Origin: Synergistaceae bacterium
Lineage (GTDB): Bacteria > Synergistota > Synergistia > Synergistales > Aminobacteriaceae
Length of the DNA stretch: 64,000 nucleotides
Direction of reading: 5' to 3'
Assembly (NCBI GenBank): GCA_018436785.1
Contig: JAHDKR010000008.1
Coordinates: 1-64,000 of the forward strand
In this document: one piece after another, positions 24,187 to 59,610 of the stretch
Position numbering within the stretch: position 1 is the stretch's first letter
How the letters are laid out: each line of letters opens with the position of its first letter
The notes under the pieces: generated by a model
Database searches by the model: none
Seen by the model: only the letters and a program-made list of their open reading frames with translations
What the model was told of the DNA's origin: nothing
Made by a program: the position numbers and the translations under genes

Positions 24187-25023
24187 CTATTTCTGCGGGG
24201 TACGGAGTTGTCTCAGAGCGGCAAGTCTGTTCCACAAGAAAATATACTGATCGTGAAAGAAAAGCAGTATATCCTGGTCAAGGGCGGGTTTCTCCAGGAA
24301 GAGTATCTCTTTGTTGTTGCGTAGCGATTCTTTAAGCTTTTTGGAAGATGTATCGACGATTACTGGAATTCTCCTTTTGAGAGCATCCTCAAGGAGAGCG
24401 AAAAGAAGGTCGAGTTCTTTTCCTTGCTCCCAAAGTGTATTCAATGACTCATCCCTTGATTCCATCGAACATCCAGCTGCAGTCAGCATCCCGGAAAAAT
24501 CACCCCCAATATAGATAAAGGCTGATCCGCTCAAAAGCCTTCTTCCCACGATGACCGTGCTGTCGAGACGCGTCTGAAATTCTGAAAGCCGACGTTGGTA
24601 GTAGGGGTAGTTTGCCGGGTCGAAATGTGAGAGGACCGTGAAAACCTTCTGTGCTATGAATGGAAGCGAAGACGGGTCAGCAAAGAAATAATCCAAACGT
24701 TTTTTGTCAAAAGGAGCTGTACGGTAAAGAAGTGCAAGCGACATCCACTCTTTTTGGTTCAATCCAAGCCGGGAAGCTTCTTCAGTATCAAGCGCAATGA
24801 TACGGCTGTCTTTGGGTATTGCACGGTTTTGTACTTTGCGTACAACTTGACCGTCTTCAGACCAAAACTCAATCGGACGAACCGCTACAAAAACGCCTCC
24901 GATAAAGCGGCTTACGAGAGCAAGCCAAGGCGTCGTCGTCCATACTTCCCAAGCGAAGGCGGAGGAAGCGCGAAGAAGGAAAAATCCAAGAAAGAAAATG
25001 AAAAGAAATCGTTTCGTTTTCAT
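24187..25023 (-). CDS. Secreted protein resembling ZnuA-type metal-binding proteins
   Basis: A 278-residue protein with a clear signal peptide (residues 1-24, hydrophobic core FLFIFFLGFFLL and cleavage after AFA). The stretch FDPANYPYYQRRLSEFQTRLD near residue 145 resembles the DPxN..Y...l..f...L helix of ZnuA/TroA substrate-binding proteins. The metal-ligand histidines and histidine-rich loop of true ZnuA are not evident, and no ABC permease or ATPase gene is adjacent, so transport function is doubtful. Its start overlaps the end of rnc by four bases, implying it is translated with rnc. Confidence 0.6.
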   Translation of the reverse strand: MKTKRFLFIFFLGFFLLRASSAFAWEVWTTTPWLALVSRFIGGVFVAVRPIEFWSEDGQVVRKVQNRAIPKDSRIIALDTEEASRLGLNQKEWMSLALLYRTAPFDKKRLDYFFADPSSLPFIAQKVFTVLSHFDPANYPYYQRRLSEFQTRLDSTVIVGRRLLSGSAFIYIGGDFSGMLTAAGCSMESRDESLNTLWEQGKELDLLFALLEDALKRRIPVIVDTSSKKLKESLRNNKEILFLEKPALDQDILLFFHDQYIFLWNRLAALRQLRTPQK

Positions 25024-25727
25024 GGCGTGGCTGTCTCCTTCGTGAAGAAAGTATACCCTTCTCTTGCCGCATTGAATTCTGCCGCTTTTTTCGATGTTCC
25101 TCTTCCTTCTCCAGCCGGGGAACCTCCAAGGAGCACTCGCACATGAAATAGAGGTTGATGAGAAGGACCGGTTACGGAAAGAATTTCGTAGGAAGGAATG
25201 CCGATGCCTCTCTCTTGAGCGAGAATCTGAAGCTCGGTTTTCGGGTCGGCAGGTTCCGGAGAAGAAAGAAACATTAGAAAATCAAGATATCTTAGTATAA
25301 CAGCATCAGCGGCTTTATATCCTCCATCGAGAAAAACTGCTCCGAAAAGGGCTTCAGCGGCATCTTCGTAGATTGAACTGCGGACAGTGCCGCCAGACAT
25401 TCCTTTCCCTGTCCTCAGAAGCGTTGGAATATCAATAAATTCCGCCCATCGGCGAAGAGAGTTTCCGCAAACAAGTGCGGCTCTCCTCCGTGAAAGAGCT
25501 CCTTCATCAAGCTGTTTTTCCGAGATAAAAAGCAAATGGGAAGCGCTGAGCTGAAGCACCGAGTCGCCGAGGAATTCCAGGCGTTCATTGTGATCGTTCC
25601 CGCCGTGTTCGTGCGTAAACGAAGAATGCAGCAATGCCATTCGCAAAAGAGTGGGATCGTCGAAAAAGTAACCGATACTCTCTTGCAGCTTTTCAAGCTT
25701 TCCGTTGTACCAGTCTTCGAAATTCAT
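25020..25727 (-). CDS. rnc: Ribonuclease III
   Basis: A 235-residue endonuclease for double-stranded RNA that processes rRNA precursors and some mRNAs. The catalytic signature HNERLEFLGDSVL is at about 46-58, a second acidic motif IYEDAAEALFGAVFLD follows at about 110-125, and the last 70 residues form the dsRNA-binding domain (AEFNAAREGY). It sits after fabF with a terminator in between, and its end overlaps the ZnuA-like gene. Confidence 0.96.
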   Translation of the reverse strand: MNFEDWYNGKLEKLQESIGYFFDDPTLLRMALLHSSFTHEHGGNDHNERLEFLGDSVLQLSASHLLFISEKQLDEGALSRRRAALVCGNSLRRWAEFIDIPTLLRTGKGMSGGTVRSSIYEDAAEALFGAVFLDGGYKAADAVILRYLDFLMFLSSPEPADPKTELQILAQERGIGIPSYEILSVTGPSHQPLFHVRVLLGGSPAGEGRGTSKKAAEFNAAREGYTFFTKETATP

Positions 25728-37252: not shown

Positions 37253-38256
37253 TGCGAAAACGCCTTTCCAGCAGGTTGCTCAAGTGAAGCGGCGCAGGAG
37301 GAGACGATCGATAGATAGTGCGTCTCAATCAAGTGAGCCATACCTTCGAGAGCCCCGCGTACTGAATCAGTCAAAAACGGGCTCGAATACGGCGCTATTT
37401 TTATGAGGGCGTCCTCTTCGCGCTCTACGATCTGGATGAAAAATTTTTGTTCGAAGGAGCCGTCGCCGGCCACTGTTTCGATAATATAAGCGCTTCCTTC
37501 CGCAGATTCGTAGAACCTTTTATACACCCAGAGAGCGTCGCCCTTTTCTCCTCCCATGTTATGTATATCGTTCACGAATTTTTTTAAAGATCCCTTTCCC
37601 GGAACTCGAATATGCACGTCCTCCGTCCTCCCTAGACAGCGGTATCCGACAGATGATTCCGCTTCTTTTTTCTGTAGTCTGGAAAGAAAAATACGTTTCC
37701 CCATCTCCATCCATTTGCGTTCGTATTTTGTTGTAACCGGCCTGGGCGGATTTATCTTCCACTCCGTAAGTTCAAGCAAAGGATGAGCGGCCAGCACATT
37801 TCGCACTTCCATACCGTACCATTCCTCGTCGGTTACAAGTTCAAAGAACGCCCCCTTCTTGAGAACGCTCGCAATCTCCGAGGGAAAATCTCCGCTGGAA
37901 ACTCTTCTTTTAGTGTGTTTTTTCTTAGGCCAAGGACAGGGGAAATTCATGTAAATGCCGTCGAGAGATTCTTTTGGAAGGCATTCTTTCAGAATGAAAC
38001 GCGCATCGCCGCACAGGAGGAAGATGTTTCGCAGTTCTTCTCTGCGAATTCTTTTCAGAGCGCGCAGAACGCACGACCGGGACATCTCGACGCCCCAAAA
38101 AACGGCATCCGGGTTTTGCCGTGCAAGATGAACGAGAAATTCACCGTTTCCGAAACCTATTTCAAGAAATACGCGCGTTTCCCCTCTCGCTCTCAGTATA
38201 TTCAGAGGAAGCTGTTGCTTTTCAGGCATGATAATAATTTCTCGTATGTCGATCAC
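37249..38256 (-). CDS. trmB: tRNA (guanine-N7-)-methyltransferase with C-terminal extension
   Basis: A 335-residue protein. The first 210 residues are a TrmB core that methylates G46: LEIGFGNGEFL binds SAM, and NFPCPWPKKKHTKRR replaces the usual PDPWPK..H.KRR motif. In most members the third residue is aspartate; here it is cysteine. The last ~120 residues form an extension absent from Escherichia coli TrmB; a C-terminal extension is known for the Aquifex-type enzyme. The start is GTG at 38256, ten bases after AGGAG. It overlaps rsmD by four bases. Confidence 0.88.
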   Translation of the reverse strand: MIDIREIIIMPEKQQLPLNILRARGETRVFLEIGFGNGEFLVHLARQNPDAVFWGVEMSRSCVLRALKRIRREELRNIFLLCGDARFILKECLPKESLDGIYMNFPCPWPKKKHTKRRVSSGDFPSEIASVLKKGAFFELVTDEEWYGMEVRNVLAAHPLLELTEWKINPPRPVTTKYERKWMEMGKRIFLSRLQKKEAESSVGYRCLGRTEDVHIRVPGKGSLKKFVNDIHNMGGEKGDALWVYKRFYESAEGSAYIIETVAGDGSFEQKFFIQIVEREEDALIKIAPYSSPFLTDSVRGALEGMAHLIETHYLSIVSSCAASLEQPAGKAFSQ

Positions 38257-38361
38257 AATTCCAACCTCTCCTTGAGCAAACTCGTACCGGAATGCATACG
38301 ATTATAGCAGCCTTCGGAACGAAATCGGCAAAAGTGAAGCGTTTGGAGTGAAATGAACGAA
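38257..38361. other. Intergenic upstream region between trmB and the nifJ promoter
   Basis: The trmB ribosome site AAGGAG lies at the left end of this gap. I see no gene here. It is about 100 bases of AT-rich sequence before the predicted nifJ promoter. Confidence 0.5.
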
Positions 38362-38389
38362 TTGACCCGTAGAAGGTTTATGGTAATAT
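38362..38389 (+). promoter_or_regulatory. Candidate nifJ promoter
   Basis: TTGACC at 38362-38367 and TAATAT at 38384-38389 are separated by 16 bases. Initiation would be near 38396, leaving a leader of about 260 bases before nifJ. A second weak -10-like TGTAAAAT lies near 38472-38480. Confidence 0.5.
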
Positions 38390-38395
38390 CAATAC

Positions 38396-38657
38396 GTGAA
38401 AAAAATACTTTTTGGTTGTCGTTTTTTTCCAGAAGTGCGGATTATACAGAATGCAAAATCCCGATCTTGTTGTAAAATAGAAGGGTGTTAACCGGAAGTC
38501 GAATTCCCATCTGACCTTCGGCGTATTTGTGCGGACATTACAAGAGCCCGCTGGAAAGATCACAATGGGGCTTATTGCGTCTATGGATCAAGAATAATAA
38601 AACAGGAGCGGGTTGCGACAACGCTGCCCCTCCTGTAATTCAAGAGGGGGTACATCA
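38396..38657 (+). promoter_or_regulatory. Structured 5' leader of nifJ with alternative hairpins
   Basis: Four segments can pair in alternative ways. Segment 1 CCCGCT (38547-38552) pairs with AGCGGG (38607-38612), which belongs to segment 2, ACAGGAGCGGG (38602-38612). Segment 2 pairs with segment 3, CCCCTCCTGT (38627-38636), over 10 pairs with one bulged C, with a small inner GCG/CGC stem. Segment 3 also pairs with the nifJ ribosome site GAGGGG (38644-38649). Pairings 1:2, 2:3 and 3:4 are therefore mutually exclusive, the geometry of an attenuator or riboswitch. The ligand or signal is unknown, and no described riboswitch family is recognised. Confidence 0.5.
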
Positions 38658-41600
38658 ATGAAGAGAAATTGGAAAACGATGGACGGCAACACTGCTGCAG
38701 CGCATGTTTCATATGCGTTCACCGAGGTTGCTGCAATTTACCCGATTACGCCGTCCTCCAATATGCCCGAAGTTGTCGATGAATGGGCTGCCCACGGCAG
38801 GAAGAATATTTTCGGCAAGACTGTCAGGGTCACGGAACTTCAGTCTGAAGCGGGAGCCGCAGGCGCCGTGCACGGTTCTCTTTCAGCCGGATCGCTTTCG
38901 ACCACCTTCACAGCATCTCAGGGTTTGTTGCTTATGATGCCGAATATGTACAAAATCGCCGGCGAACTACTTCCCGGTGTCTTTGACGTGACTGCCCGCG
39001 CAGTCGCCGCGCATGCCCTTTCCATCTTCGGCGACCACAGCGACGTCATGGCTTGCCGCGGAACGGGTTTTGCATTTCTCGCATCCGGCAGCGTCCAGGA
39101 AGTAATGGATCTGACCGCTGTCTCCCACCTCTCCGCAATCAAGGGGAGTCTTCCTTTTGTCAACTTCTTCGACGGCTTCAGAACCTCTCACGAAATTCAG
39201 AAGATCGACGTGCTTGAGTACGACGATCTTGCCAAACTTGTCGACTATGACGCGCTTGCAAAATTCAAGGCGCGCGCAATGAATCCGGAACACCCCTACC
39301 AGAAGGGAACCGCGCAGAACCCCGACATCTTCTTCCAGGCGAAAGAAGCGGTCAACAGATTCTATACTGTTATCCCGGACATCGTCGAGTCGTACATGCA
39401 GGAGATCAAGAAGCTCACAGGCAGAGAGTATCACCCGTTCAACTACTACGGCGACCCGAACGCTGAAAACATCATCATCGCAATGGGTTCTGTCTGTCAG
39501 GCGATTGAGGAAACGGTCGACTACCTCAACGCGCGCGGCGAGAAGACAGGCGTTGTAGAAGTACATCTGTATCGCCCCTTCTCCGAGAAATACTTCTTCG
39601 ACGTGCTTCCCGCATCCGTAAAGCGCATTGCTGTGCTCGACAGATGCAAGGAGCCCGGCGCTCTCGGCGAGCCCCTCTTCGAGGATATTTGCGCTATTTT
39701 CAAGGACAAAGCGGAAAGTCCGATCATTGTCGGGGGACGCTACGGCCTCGGTTCCAAGGACACCACACCGACACATATCAAATCCGTTTTCGACAATCTG
39801 AAGCTTTATCAGCCCAGGGATCGTTTCACCATCAGCATCGTCGACGACGTTACCGGCACGTCACTCCCGGTAAACGAGCAAATTGTCGCAGCCCCTGAAG
39901 GAACAATCAGATGCAAATTCTGGGGCCTTGGGTCCGATGGAACTGTGGGCGCCAACAAGAACTCGATTAAAATCATCGGCGACGAAACAGACCTTTACGC
40001 ACAAGGGTATTTTGCGTACGATTCCAAAAAATCCGGCGGGATTACCGTTTCCCACCTTCGTTTTGGCAAAAAACCGATCAAGTCCACCTATCTCATTGAT
40101 ACTGCCGACTTCATCGCTTGCCACAAGCAGGAGTATGTCAATCTCTACGATGTTCTCGGCGGCCTGAAAAAAGGCGGTTCGTTCCTTCTGAACACCCAGT
40201 GGGACACTATCGAAAAGCTTGAGAAGCATCTTCCTTCAAGGATGAGACGCGCCCTTGCAAACAACGATATTCAGTTTTATATCCTCAATGGAACGGACAT
40301 CGGCGAGGAGCTCGGTCTTGGCAACAGGATCAACATGATCATGCAGGCCGCATTCTTCAAGCTGACCAATGTCATTCCTATAAACGACGCCGTGAAATAT
40401 ATGAAGGACGCCATCGACCACACCTACAGCAGGAAGGGCGAGGCCATTCTCGAGATGAACTACAAGGCAGTGGATGCAGGCATCAATGCGATCAAGAAGA
40501 TCGACGTGCCTGCTGAGTGGGCGAACGCGACGTCCGAACCGGTGCTTCTTTCCGGTCTGCCGTCGGAGATTCCCGATTTTGTCAAGGATGTCTGCATGCC
40601 CATCAATGCGCAGCAGGGCGATTCTCTTCCTGTCAGCGCATTCCTCGGACGCGAAGACGGCAAATTCCCTTCGGGAACCGCCGCTTTCGAGAAACGTGGC
40701 GTTGCGGTAAATGTTCCGGAATGGAAAAGCGACAAGTGCATCCAGTGCAACCAGTGCTCGATGGTCTGTCCGCACGCTGCCATTCGCCCGTTTATTCTGA
40801 ACGAGCAGGAACTCGCGGCCGCGCCTCAAGGCTTCGGCGCAGTCGAAGTCAAAGGAAAAGAGTTCCCCGGCTGCAAGTACAAGATGCAGGTTGACACGCT
40901 CGACTGCATGGGCTGCGGCAACTGCGCCGATATCTGCCCAGTGGGCGCGCTCGAAATGAAACCGATCGTTTCTCAGGAAAAAGAGATACCGAACTGGCTC
41001 TATGCCGTAGAAGAGGTTTCCGACAAGTCTGCGGAGACGAACAAGTTTACGGTCAAGGGAAGCCAGTTTTCCCAGCCGCTCCTCGAGTTCTCAGGAGCGT
41101 GCGCCGGGTGCGGCGAGACGCCGTACATTAAGCTCGTTACACAGCTCTTCGGCGACCGGATGATTGTTGCGAACGCCACTGGCTGCTCTTCGATCTGGGG
41201 CGGATCGGCTCCCAGCATGCCCTATACGAAGAACTCCAAGGGGCAGGGACCTGCATGGGCCAACTCCCTCTTTGAGGACAACGCGGAATACGGCTATGGC
41301 ATGAAGCTCTCTGTCAACGCCACAATGCAATATGTCATCGATGCAATGAACGGTCTTCTGGCGCTCGACATCCCCGAGGATGTAAAAGCCGTGGTTTCAG
41401 AGTGGCTTGAGTCGAAGGATGACGGAGACAAATCCAAAGCTGCCGCAGAAAAGGTGCTTGCTATTCTTGATCGCGACATCGGCGAAGAAGGGAACAAGCT
41501 GCTCTGCGAAATCGCCTGCCACAAGGATTATCTTGTTAAAAAGTCCGTCTGGATTTTCGGCGGCGACGGCTGGGCATACGATATCGGTTTCGGCGGCCTC

Positions 41601-42215
41601 GACCACGTGCTTGCGTCGGGTGAAGACATCAATGTCTTCGTACTCGACACCGAAGTGTACTCCAACACCGGCGGCCAGTCCTCGAAATCCACGCAGACGG
41701 CGGCAATCGCAAAATTCGCGGCCTCCGGCAAACGGGTAAAGAAAAAGGACCTCGGCCGGATCGCGATGACCTACGGATATGTATATGTCGCTCAAGTCGC
41801 GATGGGCGCCGACAAGAACCAGCTGATGAAAGCCATTAAAGAAGCGGAAGCCTACAACGGGCCCTCTCTGGTCATTGCGTACGCTCCCTGCATTGCGCAT
41901 GGCATCAGCGCCGGAATGGGCAAGACGCAGGATCAGACGAAAAAAGCCGTGGAGGCAGGATACTGGCATCTCTACCGCTATAACCCCGAACTCGCCGAGG
42001 CAGGGAGCAACCCGTTTGTACTCGACTCCAAGGAGCCCAAAGCAGACTTTAAGGACTTCCTGATGAGCGAAGTTCGTTATGCTTCCTTGAAAAAGGAGTT
42101 CCCGGATACCGCGGACGAGCTCTTCGAAAAGGCGGCAAAGGATGCCCGGGAGCGTTACGAAATCTATAAGCAGCTTGCCGAGATGGGCAAACAGCCTGTA
42201 AAGGCTGAAGCGTAA
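38658..42215 (+). CDS. nifJ: Pyruvate:ferredoxin (flavodoxin) oxidoreductase
   Basis: A single-chain 1185-residue PFOR that oxidises pyruvate to acetyl-CoA and CO2 and reduces ferredoxin. It starts with KTMDGNTAAAHVSYAF and YPITPSS, has two bacterial ferredoxin 4Fe-4S motifs (CIQCNQCSMVCP and CMGCGNCADICP), the TPP-domain cysteines CAGCGETPY, and the thiamine-binding block from GDGWAYDIG to NTGGQ. ATG 38658 is preceded by GAGGGGG. A TTG at 38613, in frame and four bases after AGGAGCGGG, would add 15 residues (MRQRCPSC...). Codon use is strong, so it is probably highly expressed. With ackA and the ferredoxin at 57700 it forms an acetate energy branch. Confidence 0.97.
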   Translation: MKRNWKTMDGNTAAAHVSYAFTEVAAIYPITPSSNMPEVVDEWAAHGRKNIFGKTVRVTELQSEAGAAGAVHGSLSAGSLSTTFTASQGLLLMMPNMYKIAGELLPGVFDVTARAVAAHALSIFGDHSDVMACRGTGFAFLASGSVQEVMDLTAVSHLSAIKGSLPFVNFFDGFRTSHEIQKIDVLEYDDLAKLVDYDALAKFKARAMNPEHPYQKGTAQNPDIFFQAKEAVNRFYTVIPDIVESYMQEIKKLTGREYHPFNYYGDPNAENIIIAMGSVCQAIEETVDYLNARGEKTGVVEVHLYRPFSEKYFFDVLPASVKRIAVLDRCKEPGALGEPLFEDICAIFKDKAESPIIVGGRYGLGSKDTTPTHIKSVFDNLKLYQPRDRFTISIVDDVTGTSLPVNEQIVAAPEGTIRCKFWGLGSDGTVGANKNSIKIIGDETDLYAQGYFAYDSKKSGGITVSHLRFGKKPIKSTYLIDTADFIACHKQEYVNLYDVLGGLKKGGSFLLNTQWDTIEKLEKHLPSRMRRALANNDIQFYILNGTDIGEELGLGNRINMIMQAAFFKLTNVIPINDAVKYMKDAIDHTYSRKGEAILEMNYKAVDAGINAIKKIDVPAEWANATSEPVLLSGLPSEIPDFVKDVCMPINAQQGDSLPVSAFLGREDGKFPSGTAAFEKRGVAVNVPEWKSDKCIQCNQCSMVCPHAAIRPFILNEQELAAAPQGFGAVEVKGKEFPGCKYKMQVDTLDCMGCGNCADICPVGALEMKPIVSQEKEIPNWLYAVEEVSDKSAETNKFTVKGSQFSQPLLEFSGACAGCGETPYIKLVTQLFGDRMIVANATGCSSIWGGSAPSMPYTKNSKGQGPAWANSLFEDNAEYGYGMKLSVNATMQYVIDAMNGLLALDIPEDVKAVVSEWLESKDDGDKSKAAAEKVLAILDRDIGEEGNKLLCEIACHKDYLVKKSVWIFGGDGWAYDIGFGGLDHVLASGEDINVFVLDTEVYSNTGGQSSKSTQTAAIAKFAASGKRVKKKDLGRIAMTYGYVYVAQVAMGADKNQLMKAIKEAEAYNGPSLVIAYAPCIAHGISAGMGKTQDQTKKAVEAGYWHLYRYNPELAEAGSNPFVLDSKEPKADFKDFLMSEVRYASLKKEFPDTADELFEKAAKDARERYEIYKQLAEMGKQPVKAEA

Positions 42216-42514: not shown

Positions 42515-43351
42515 ATGGGAAGAGAACAAAAGGGGTTTAAAAATAAAAAAAGCCTCGGGCAGAACTTTCTTGTCGACCGGAATATACTTCGCCATATTCT
42601 GGAACAGGCCGATCTTTCCGTGGACGATACCGTTCTGGAAATAGGAGCCGGCCAAGGAGTGCTGACAAGGGAACTTGCGGCCTCTCCGTGCTCGTTCGTT
42701 TTCTCTGTAGAAATCGATGAAGGGCTTTCGGAGTATCTGCGGGACATCACTCTGCTCTATCCAAACACGTTTTCTCTTCTGTGGGGAGATGCGCTTGCCG
42801 TGGACTATTCTTCCCTTTCTCCCGTTCCAACGAAGGTTGTAGCAAACATCCCATACAACATTACCACTCCCCTGCTCTGGAGGCTCCTGGAGCAACTCCC
42901 GGAGGCCGGGACGGGCTATTTCCTCCTTATGGTACAGAAAGAGGCGGCAGAGAGGATTACAGCCCCTCCAGGAACAAAGGAACGCTACCCCCTTGGGATA
43001 ACGCTCGAGCTTATGGGAAAGGCGCGAAGTGTTCGGACCGTCCATCCTCAGTCTTTCCGTCCGGTTCCTGCTGTTGAATCATCGCTTCTTGAAATCCGTC
43101 TTTCCGGAATGCATGCGACTCTCCCGAAGGATAGCCTCTGGAGGAATCTCCTCCGTTCCAGTTTTGCTCAAAGGCGTAAGAAGCTCTCGAACAATCTGCG
43201 CGGTTTTTATCCTTCAGTTAGCTGGAGCGAGGCTTTTGAACGTACGGAGATACATGAAAATGCACGGGCCGAGGAACTGACGGGAGAACAGTGGTTGGCG
43301 TTATGGTTTTTTTTAAAGACCTTTGAAAAAAAGAGCCTCTCCCCGGAGTAA
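42515..43351 (+). CDS. rsmA: 16S rRNA dimethyladenosine transferase (KsgA)
   Basis: A 278-residue SAM-dependent enzyme that dimethylates A1518 and A1519. It shows LGQNFLVDRNI, SAM motif EIGAGQGVLT and the NIPYNITTPLLW catalytic motif (NLPY type). The ATG at 42515 has GAGAGA upstream, and a GAGGAG lies 13 bases before it; a longer frame extending to 42413 overlaps the tRNA and is not used. It is convergent with hup. Confidence 0.93.
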   Translation: MGREQKGFKNKKSLGQNFLVDRNILRHILEQADLSVDDTVLEIGAGQGVLTRELAASPCSFVFSVEIDEGLSEYLRDITLLYPNTFSLLWGDALAVDYSSLSPVPTKVVANIPYNITTPLLWRLLEQLPEAGTGYFLLMVQKEAAERITAPPGTKERYPLGITLELMGKARSVRTVHPQSFRPVPAVESSLLEIRLSGMHATLPKDSLWRNLLRSSFAQRRKKLSNNLRGFYPSVSWSEAFERTEIHENARAEELTGEQWLALWFFLKTFEKKSLSPE

Positions 43352-58755: not shown

Positions 58756-59610
58756 TCACTCCACAAATAAGATTTTGCGTATCCATTGCATATGCCTGCA
58801 GCTCCGAATCATTCGCGAAAAACCGTCATTTTGATGAAACAGCCCGAAAGCCGAGCTGCCGCTTCCTGTGATACCCCATCCAAGCGATCCGCTTTCCCGG
58901 AATGCGCTAAAAACGTCGGCGTATTCCGGGTGCTCTTTCAGAAGAACTGTGCAGAAATCATTCGGCAGAAGCCCGCAAAACGTTTTATCATGCAATTTTG
59001 AGAGAATACCATTCCTCTCATCTTCGGCTTCCTCCTCGTTCATGGGGAAAAAACCGCCGTATTCGGCTGTGAGAAGAGAAAAGGCTCTTGCCGTCGACAT
59101 ACTCCATGAGGGAATGACAACGACTACGTGAAAGGGCGGCATAATCCCGGAGAGAGGTTCCACACGTTCACCTCTGCCTCCGACGAAAGCCCATTTCTCT
59201 GCGTTCAAAAAAAACGGAACGTCGGACCCAATCTCTTCGCCTCGAATTCCTTCATTCTCTTCACGCTGAGAGTTCAGCCAAGAAATCAGAGCTGCGGCGT
59301 TTCCGCTTCCCCCGCCGAGGCCGCTCCCAGGGGGTATGACCTTATGAAGCCGTATGCGCAGAGGATCCACTCCTCTTTTTTTTCGCGCCGCAGAAAGAAC
59401 TTCTTCAAGGATGTTTCTTCCGCGAATCATTTCTCCTGTTACGGAGATTATGTCCTTTACATTATGACCATAATCAGGTTCAATTGTCAATGATTCAATT
59501 GCGGGAAGCGCATAAAAAAGAGAACGAAGTTCATGATAACCGTCATCACGTTTTCTGGTGACTCGAAGCGTGATGTTCACCTTCGCCGCGGATTGCAGAC
59601 AGTGAATCAA
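58756..59610 (-). CDS. ispE: 4-diphosphocytidyl-2-C-methyl-D-erythritol kinase
   Basis: A 284-residue GHMP kinase in the MEP isoprenoid pathway. The N-terminal AAKVNITLRVTRKRDDGYHEL and the ATP-binding PPGSGLGGGSGNAAA identify it. The start is TTG at 59610, nine bases after AAGGAG. It is six bases upstream of purR. Confidence 0.94.
   Translation of the reverse strand: MIHCLQSAAKVNITLRVTRKRDDGYHELRSLFYALPAIESLTIEPDYGHNVKDIISVTGEMIRGRNILEEVLSAARKKRGVDPLRIRLHKVIPPGSGLGGGSGNAAALISWLNSQREENEGIRGEEIGSDVPFFLNAEKWAFVGGRGERVEPLSGIMPPFHVVVVIPSWSMSTARAFSLLTAEYGGFFPMNEEEAEDERNGILSKLHDKTFCGLLPNDFCTVLLKEHPEYADVFSAFRESGSLGWGITGSGSSAFGLFHQNDGFSRMIRSCRHMQWIRKILFVE

Follow-up and report, generated by a model that had tools for sequence, protein, structure and literature searches.

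A conserved hairpin adjoining the nifJ ribosome site in Synergistaceae, with a possible role in stabilizing or insulating the message

A stem-loop located directly upstream of the Shine-Dalgarno (SD) site of nifJ is conserved, with compensatory changes, in related Synergistaceae; its distance from the SD is fixed, and it is restricted to nifJ. The hairpin is best explained as a constitutive element of the nifJ 5'-UTR that most likely stabilizes or insulates the mRNA, a role to which we give about an even chance. The analyzed window was a 64,000-nt stretch of a contig from an 83%-complete Synergistaceae assembly and includes a full-length gene for pyruvate:ferredoxin (flavodoxin) oxidoreductase (PFOR; Table 1). 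The initial annotation had described four short segments in front of this gene, and all of them were located exactly as given: CCCGCT (38547–38552), ACAGGAGCGGG (38602–38612), CCCCTCCTGT (38627–38636), and GAGGGG (38644–38649). The TTG at 38613 and the nifJ ATG at 38658 were likewise confirmed by position in the window sequence. The segments had been proposed to pair as 1:2, 2:3, or 3:4 and thereby to switch access to the ribosome site; stem 2:3 was upheld by the comparison of related leaders, and the three-way switch was not supported.

Table 1. Features of nifJ and its leader in the analyzed window.
Feature	Position	Strand	Basis and remarks
Distal promoter-like element P1 (TTGACC, 16 nt, TAATAT)	38362..38389	+	Consensus scan; shared by 8 of 9 aligned leaders (G003 lacks it)
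Conserved block ATTATACAGAATGCAAAATCCC...TTGTTGTAAAATA with proximal promoter-like element P2 (-10-like TAAAAT, 38473–38478)	38441..38479	+	Near-identical in 9 aligned leaders (genera g1, g3, g18)
Segment 1 (CCCGCT)	38547..38552	+	Judged coincidental; in no relative; 8% of shuffles would contain a 6-nt complement
A/U-rich AATAATAA, directly 5' of the hairpin; candidate cleavage site	38593..38600	+	AATAA invariant in 11 leaders; cleavage putative
Conserved hairpin (segments 2 and 3; basal CAGG 38603–38606, CCTG 38632–38635)	38602..38636	+	Fold energy; covariation (10 leaders); present in 11 of 11 leaders
nifJ SD site GAGGGGGT, including segment 4	38644..38651	+	CAAGAGGGGGTAC conserved in 8 nifJ leaders; 8–9 nt from the hairpin
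nifJ, pyruvate:ferredoxin (flavodoxin) oxidoreductase	38658..42215	+	TIGR02176, 1928.5 bits

Pairing 2:3 exceeds chance: the hairpin has a predicted energy of -23.5 kcal/mol (z = -3.3), which was equaled in 1 of 200 shuffles, and in the ensemble of the leader counted from its likely start near 38485 the seven basal pairs had probabilities of 0.92–1.0. A background of folds upstream of other genes was drawn from the 64-kb window only (49 crude gene calls); among those lying directly upstream of an SD, the nifJ hairpin ranked second by z. Three other folds at or below -20 kcal/mol preceded T-runs and resemble terminators of the gene before them. Such terminator-like T-run hairpins stand just before the reading frames 58756–59610, 25020–25727, and 42515–43351. 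The nifJ hairpin was itself ruled out as a terminator because its stem is followed by AATTCAAG with no U-run, and no intrinsic terminator was found within 38200–38800.

Transcription is predicted, from the promoter-like sequence of P2, to start near 38485. A start near 38640, which would have rendered the pairings coincidental, is made unlikely by the conserved promoter-like elements upstream, which put the hairpin within the transcript. The P2 block had a single match in the window, and a TTGTAGTA-V-AAT core was found upstream of nifJ in most genera of the family; its spacing is unusual for an extended -10. Before nifJ in genera g1, g3, and g18, the block ATTATACAGAATGCAAAATCCC...TTGTTGTAAAATA is better conserved than the hairpin. 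The first half of the block, a possible operator, is without counterpart in other genera. The SD context AGAGGGGGTAC (38641–38653) is also conserved before nifJ in most genera of the family, far beyond the needs of pairing, with a mid-site G in place of the usual A. A second exact CAAGAGGGGGTAC occurs outside nifJ in the genome of the window (G000:C166:5434-5446).

For the comparison, nifJ leaders were collected from 60 genomes of the family. In all 11 leaders from four Synergistaceae genera (g1, g3, g14, and g18), the same order was observed: AATAA(T), a hairpin closed by CAGG/CCTG, a spacer, and the SD. This bears out the claim of a conserved RNA structure next to the nifJ ribosome site. The spacer between the hairpin foot and the SD measured 8 nt (9 nt in G003), and the CCTG foot stood 22 nt from the ATG in 10 of the 11 leaders and 23 nt in G003. 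This spacing is constant despite hairpin spans of 16–33 nt, and the distance between the promoter core and the invariant AATAA varied from 40 to 116 nt.

The interior of the hairpin has diverged in both sequence and length among the related leaders, with pairing retained. In a 10-sequence alignment scored against the window structure, the covariation score was 0.298, compared with 0.152 in shuffles, and 73.4% of the cells were paired, compared with 63.5%; each value was attained in 1 of 500 shuffles, a control that ignores relatedness. When the arms were slid against each other, the paired cells reached at most 48.9% and the covariation at most 0.154. Among the changed pairs, 12:25 occurs as GC, UG, and CG, 6:30 as CG and AU, and 1:35 as UA and AU. 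The interiors taken together folded better than their shuffles (Fisher p = 3e-4, approximate for related sequences). An arm-swap test gave a mixed outcome: the native arms did better in 68% of the swaps, but not in G061 and G021. Thus, the compensatory changes that had been named as support for the pairings were found for stem 2:3, with covariation above both the shuffled and the slid controls; the stem is real and kept in related bacteria. Six pairs had changed on both sides, which by count alone was not above shuffles (116/500) and counts against the stabilizing role; the count was made on a realigned set in which G003 stood one column off, lowering it.

This count also bears on an explanation at the level of DNA, according to which a transcription factor binds the element as an inverted repeat, or the element is a functionless structure drifting with the lineage. 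The CAGG and CCTG ends would then be inverted half-sites, and the comparison comprised just 10–11 sequences from few genera. However, such half-sites would be separated by 8–25 nt, a range that a dimer could not easily accommodate, the interior pairs covary and, by the same approximate test, fold better than shuffles, and the distance to the SD is fixed. We therefore consider the DNA reading improbable.

In a pattern search of 12 genomes, convincing matches to the element occurred only before nifJ. The pattern matched the nifJ leader in 10 of these genomes; G017 carries a short version that the pattern missed, and in G001 a close nifJ was not found. The two further matches, in G006 and G003, were unlike the element, and a dispersed repeat was rejected on this ground.

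The specificity for nifJ, together with the near-invariant CAGG/CCTG base and AATAA beside a diverging interior, is also what would be expected if an RNA-binding protein recognized these motifs and controlled nifJ translation or decay, with the upper stem serving as a scaffold. The invariant parts suggest that sequence, and not just shape, is read by something, and because of them this explanation ranks next after stabilization or insulation; we nevertheless regard it as unlikely. A candidate protein is lacking, the hairpins of other genera have different feet, and a CsrA-controlled leader was rejected, since CsrA was not found in the hairpin-bearing genomes G004 (85% complete), G017, and G021 and the loops share no GGA.

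Beyond the four genera, near-SD nifJ hairpins in many other genera of the family are more weakly supported and suggestive only. Their feet lie near the SD and differ in sequence, for example TGTCGTATTC/GGATGCGGCA in G106, TGTCGCG/CGCGACA in G020, GTGCCG/CGGCAC in G016, GCGCGC/GCGCGC in G035, and CGCGCC/GGCGCG in G018. The mean folding z of these hairpins was -1.32, compared with -0.29 in ten nifJ paralogues (p = 0.004), and the paralogues had no such structure (p = 6e-5). The nifJ leaders of the large genus g16 were A/U-rich and without structure (mean z of -0.39 in seven). At the level of the order, a strong hairpin was found in G043 (z = -3.5) and was absent in G047, G055, and G038. The G016 leader (L144, 171 nt) is highly structured (-77 kcal/mol, z = -6.0), and two long stems fill part of the interval from promoter to SD. 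A family-wide, uncatalogued cis-regulatory RNA is a further reading, which we hold to be rather improbable; the AATAA-CAGG/CCTG hairpin, or its counterparts with other feet in other genera, would then be recognized by a protein or processing enzyme that tunes PFOR, an enzyme central to fermentation.

In the proposed switch, pairings 1:2 and 3:4 would arise together under some condition and hide the SD, and 2:3 would expose it. The pairings can indeed be drawn. However, segment 1 was absent from every relative examined: the stretch is missing from most of them, and G004 and G002, of similar length there, have a different sequence. Pairings 1:2 and 3:4 are possible yet near chance. Shuffled leaders contained a 6-nt stretch complementary to segment 2 in 8% of cases at a length of 110 nt and in 10% at 199 nt, and a shuffled segment 3 gave a 6-nt match to the SD region in 18% of cases. 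The longest 3:4 match measured 6 bp in the window and 3–5 bp in the other leaders, which a G-rich SD would lead one to expect. Once a hairpin and such an SD are present, the remaining two pairings are therefore easily found. In the ensemble of the window leader, the state combining 1:2 and 3:4 was 5.5 kcal/mol weaker, with a pair probability of about 1e-4. The proposed check on homologous leaders, which upheld stem 2:3, thus speaks against the switch.

A conserved sensor region between promoter and hairpin was not found either. The relatives did not share mutually exclusive pairings, and the freely varying interior of the hairpin, with no Rfam family assigned, did not resemble an aptamer core or a known class. 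A riboswitch or attenuator is thus disfavored by both conservation and energy. Three relatives with weak hairpins (G061, G021, and G017) showed some 3:4-like pairing in their ensembles, and two of them (G021 and G061) also 1:2-like pairing. We take the 3:4-like pairing as the expected stickiness of a G-run; it is also the best remaining hint of a switch, which overall we judge very unlikely.

It had further been claimed that only 2:3 leaves the SD free. Stem 2:3 does form; however, when the whole 173-nt leader of the window is folded, this stem is kept and the SD is predicted to bind a more distant C-rich stretch upstream. The latter pairing was not predicted in G003 or in the g3 relatives. 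The alternative TTG start within the leader is present and, among the 11 leaders, is in frame only in G004; a shared start at this position was rejected for that reason. A reading frame that in some genomes stays open across the hairpin as far as the ATG was rejected because leader lengths differ by non-multiples of three, and a leader peptide read by eye in the window (MGLIASMDQE, ending at TAATAA) is not common to the relatives.

The statement that no described element was known at this site agreed with the database search: Rfam gave no match at the gathering score, and the sub-threshold matches were weak, to enterobacterial sRNA models, and on the opposite strand. A nifJ leader element was not found in the literature searched. 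The structure looks like an uncatalogued leader hairpin of an ordinary kind, in a gene where none was described.

As a constitutive structure, the stem-loop held 8–9 nt upstream of the SD would raise and steady nifJ expression. Transcripts initiated at P2 may be cleaved by an endonuclease in the A/U-rich AATAATAA, 5' of the hairpin, after which the structured block beside the start would resist decay of the message. The stem would also lock up nearby leader sequence, including C-runs that might otherwise bind the G-rich SD. Genes for RNase E/G and for an RNase J-type protein are present in the genome; as the processing enzyme, RNase Y was rejected, since none scored above the cut-off in the 83%-complete genome. 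The apical part is free to vary in both sequence and size, which fits a structural block and not a ligand pocket. Pairing, more than sequence, is conserved in the stem; the CAGG/CCTG base, however, is invariant in sequence. In the local fold, a stable stem-loop stands upstream of an unpaired SD, whereas the full-length leader of the window is predicted to engage the SD in another pairing, so that insulation would be incomplete. The stabilizing role is also countered by the weak hairpins in the full leaders of G061, G021, and G017 (pair probabilities of 0.56, 0.18, and 0.38, respectively) and by the hairpin-free leaders of g16.

Should the hairpin govern the amount of PFOR, it would offer, in a little-studied phylum, a compact test case of leader hairpins whose distance from the ribosome site is fixed. 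Otherwise, the leader illustrates how readily three-way switches can be drawn from a single genome when the SD is G-rich, and that a dozen relatives can settle such a proposal.

Among known systems, 5' stabilizers of the ompA type have a 5'-UTR stem-loop that occupies the extreme 5' end and precedes an SD region left single-stranded. The nifJ hairpin is similarly a 5'-UTR stem-loop upstream of the SD region; unlike in ompA, the predicted start in the window lies more than 100 nt upstream of the hairpin, and ompA-like protection would therefore need processing. With SD-sequestering riboswitches and attenuators, the leader shares a structure adjoining the SD and alternative pairings that can be drawn, but these alternatives are unconserved, and a sensor domain, a terminator, and an Rfam match were not found. 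In the cggR-gapA operon of Bacillus subtilis, a hairpin stabilizes the processed 5' end of gapA after cleavage by RNase Y (PMC11780869). As in nifJ, the stem-loop precedes a highly used gene of central metabolism and has an A/U-rich unpaired stretch 5' of the stem. The gapA hairpin, however, follows another gene in an operon, whereas that of nifJ lies in a leader after a promoter, where cleavage is only presumed and RNase Y was not found above the cut-off. In the cip-cel operon of Ruminiclostridium cellulolyticum, stem-loops beside genes are reported to act as cleavage signals and to stabilize processed ends (PMC10311766). These stem-loops adjoin genes, as in nifJ, but are intergenic and mostly cut 3' of the stem, whereas the A/U-rich candidate site of nifJ is 5' of it. 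With its A/U-rich single strand, strong stem, fixed spacer, and strong SD, the nifJ leader resembles the processing-and-stabilization sites of gapA and cip-cel. This resemblance, together with the encoded RNase E/G and RNase J-type proteins, makes stabilization or insulation of the nifJ message the most likely role of the hairpin.
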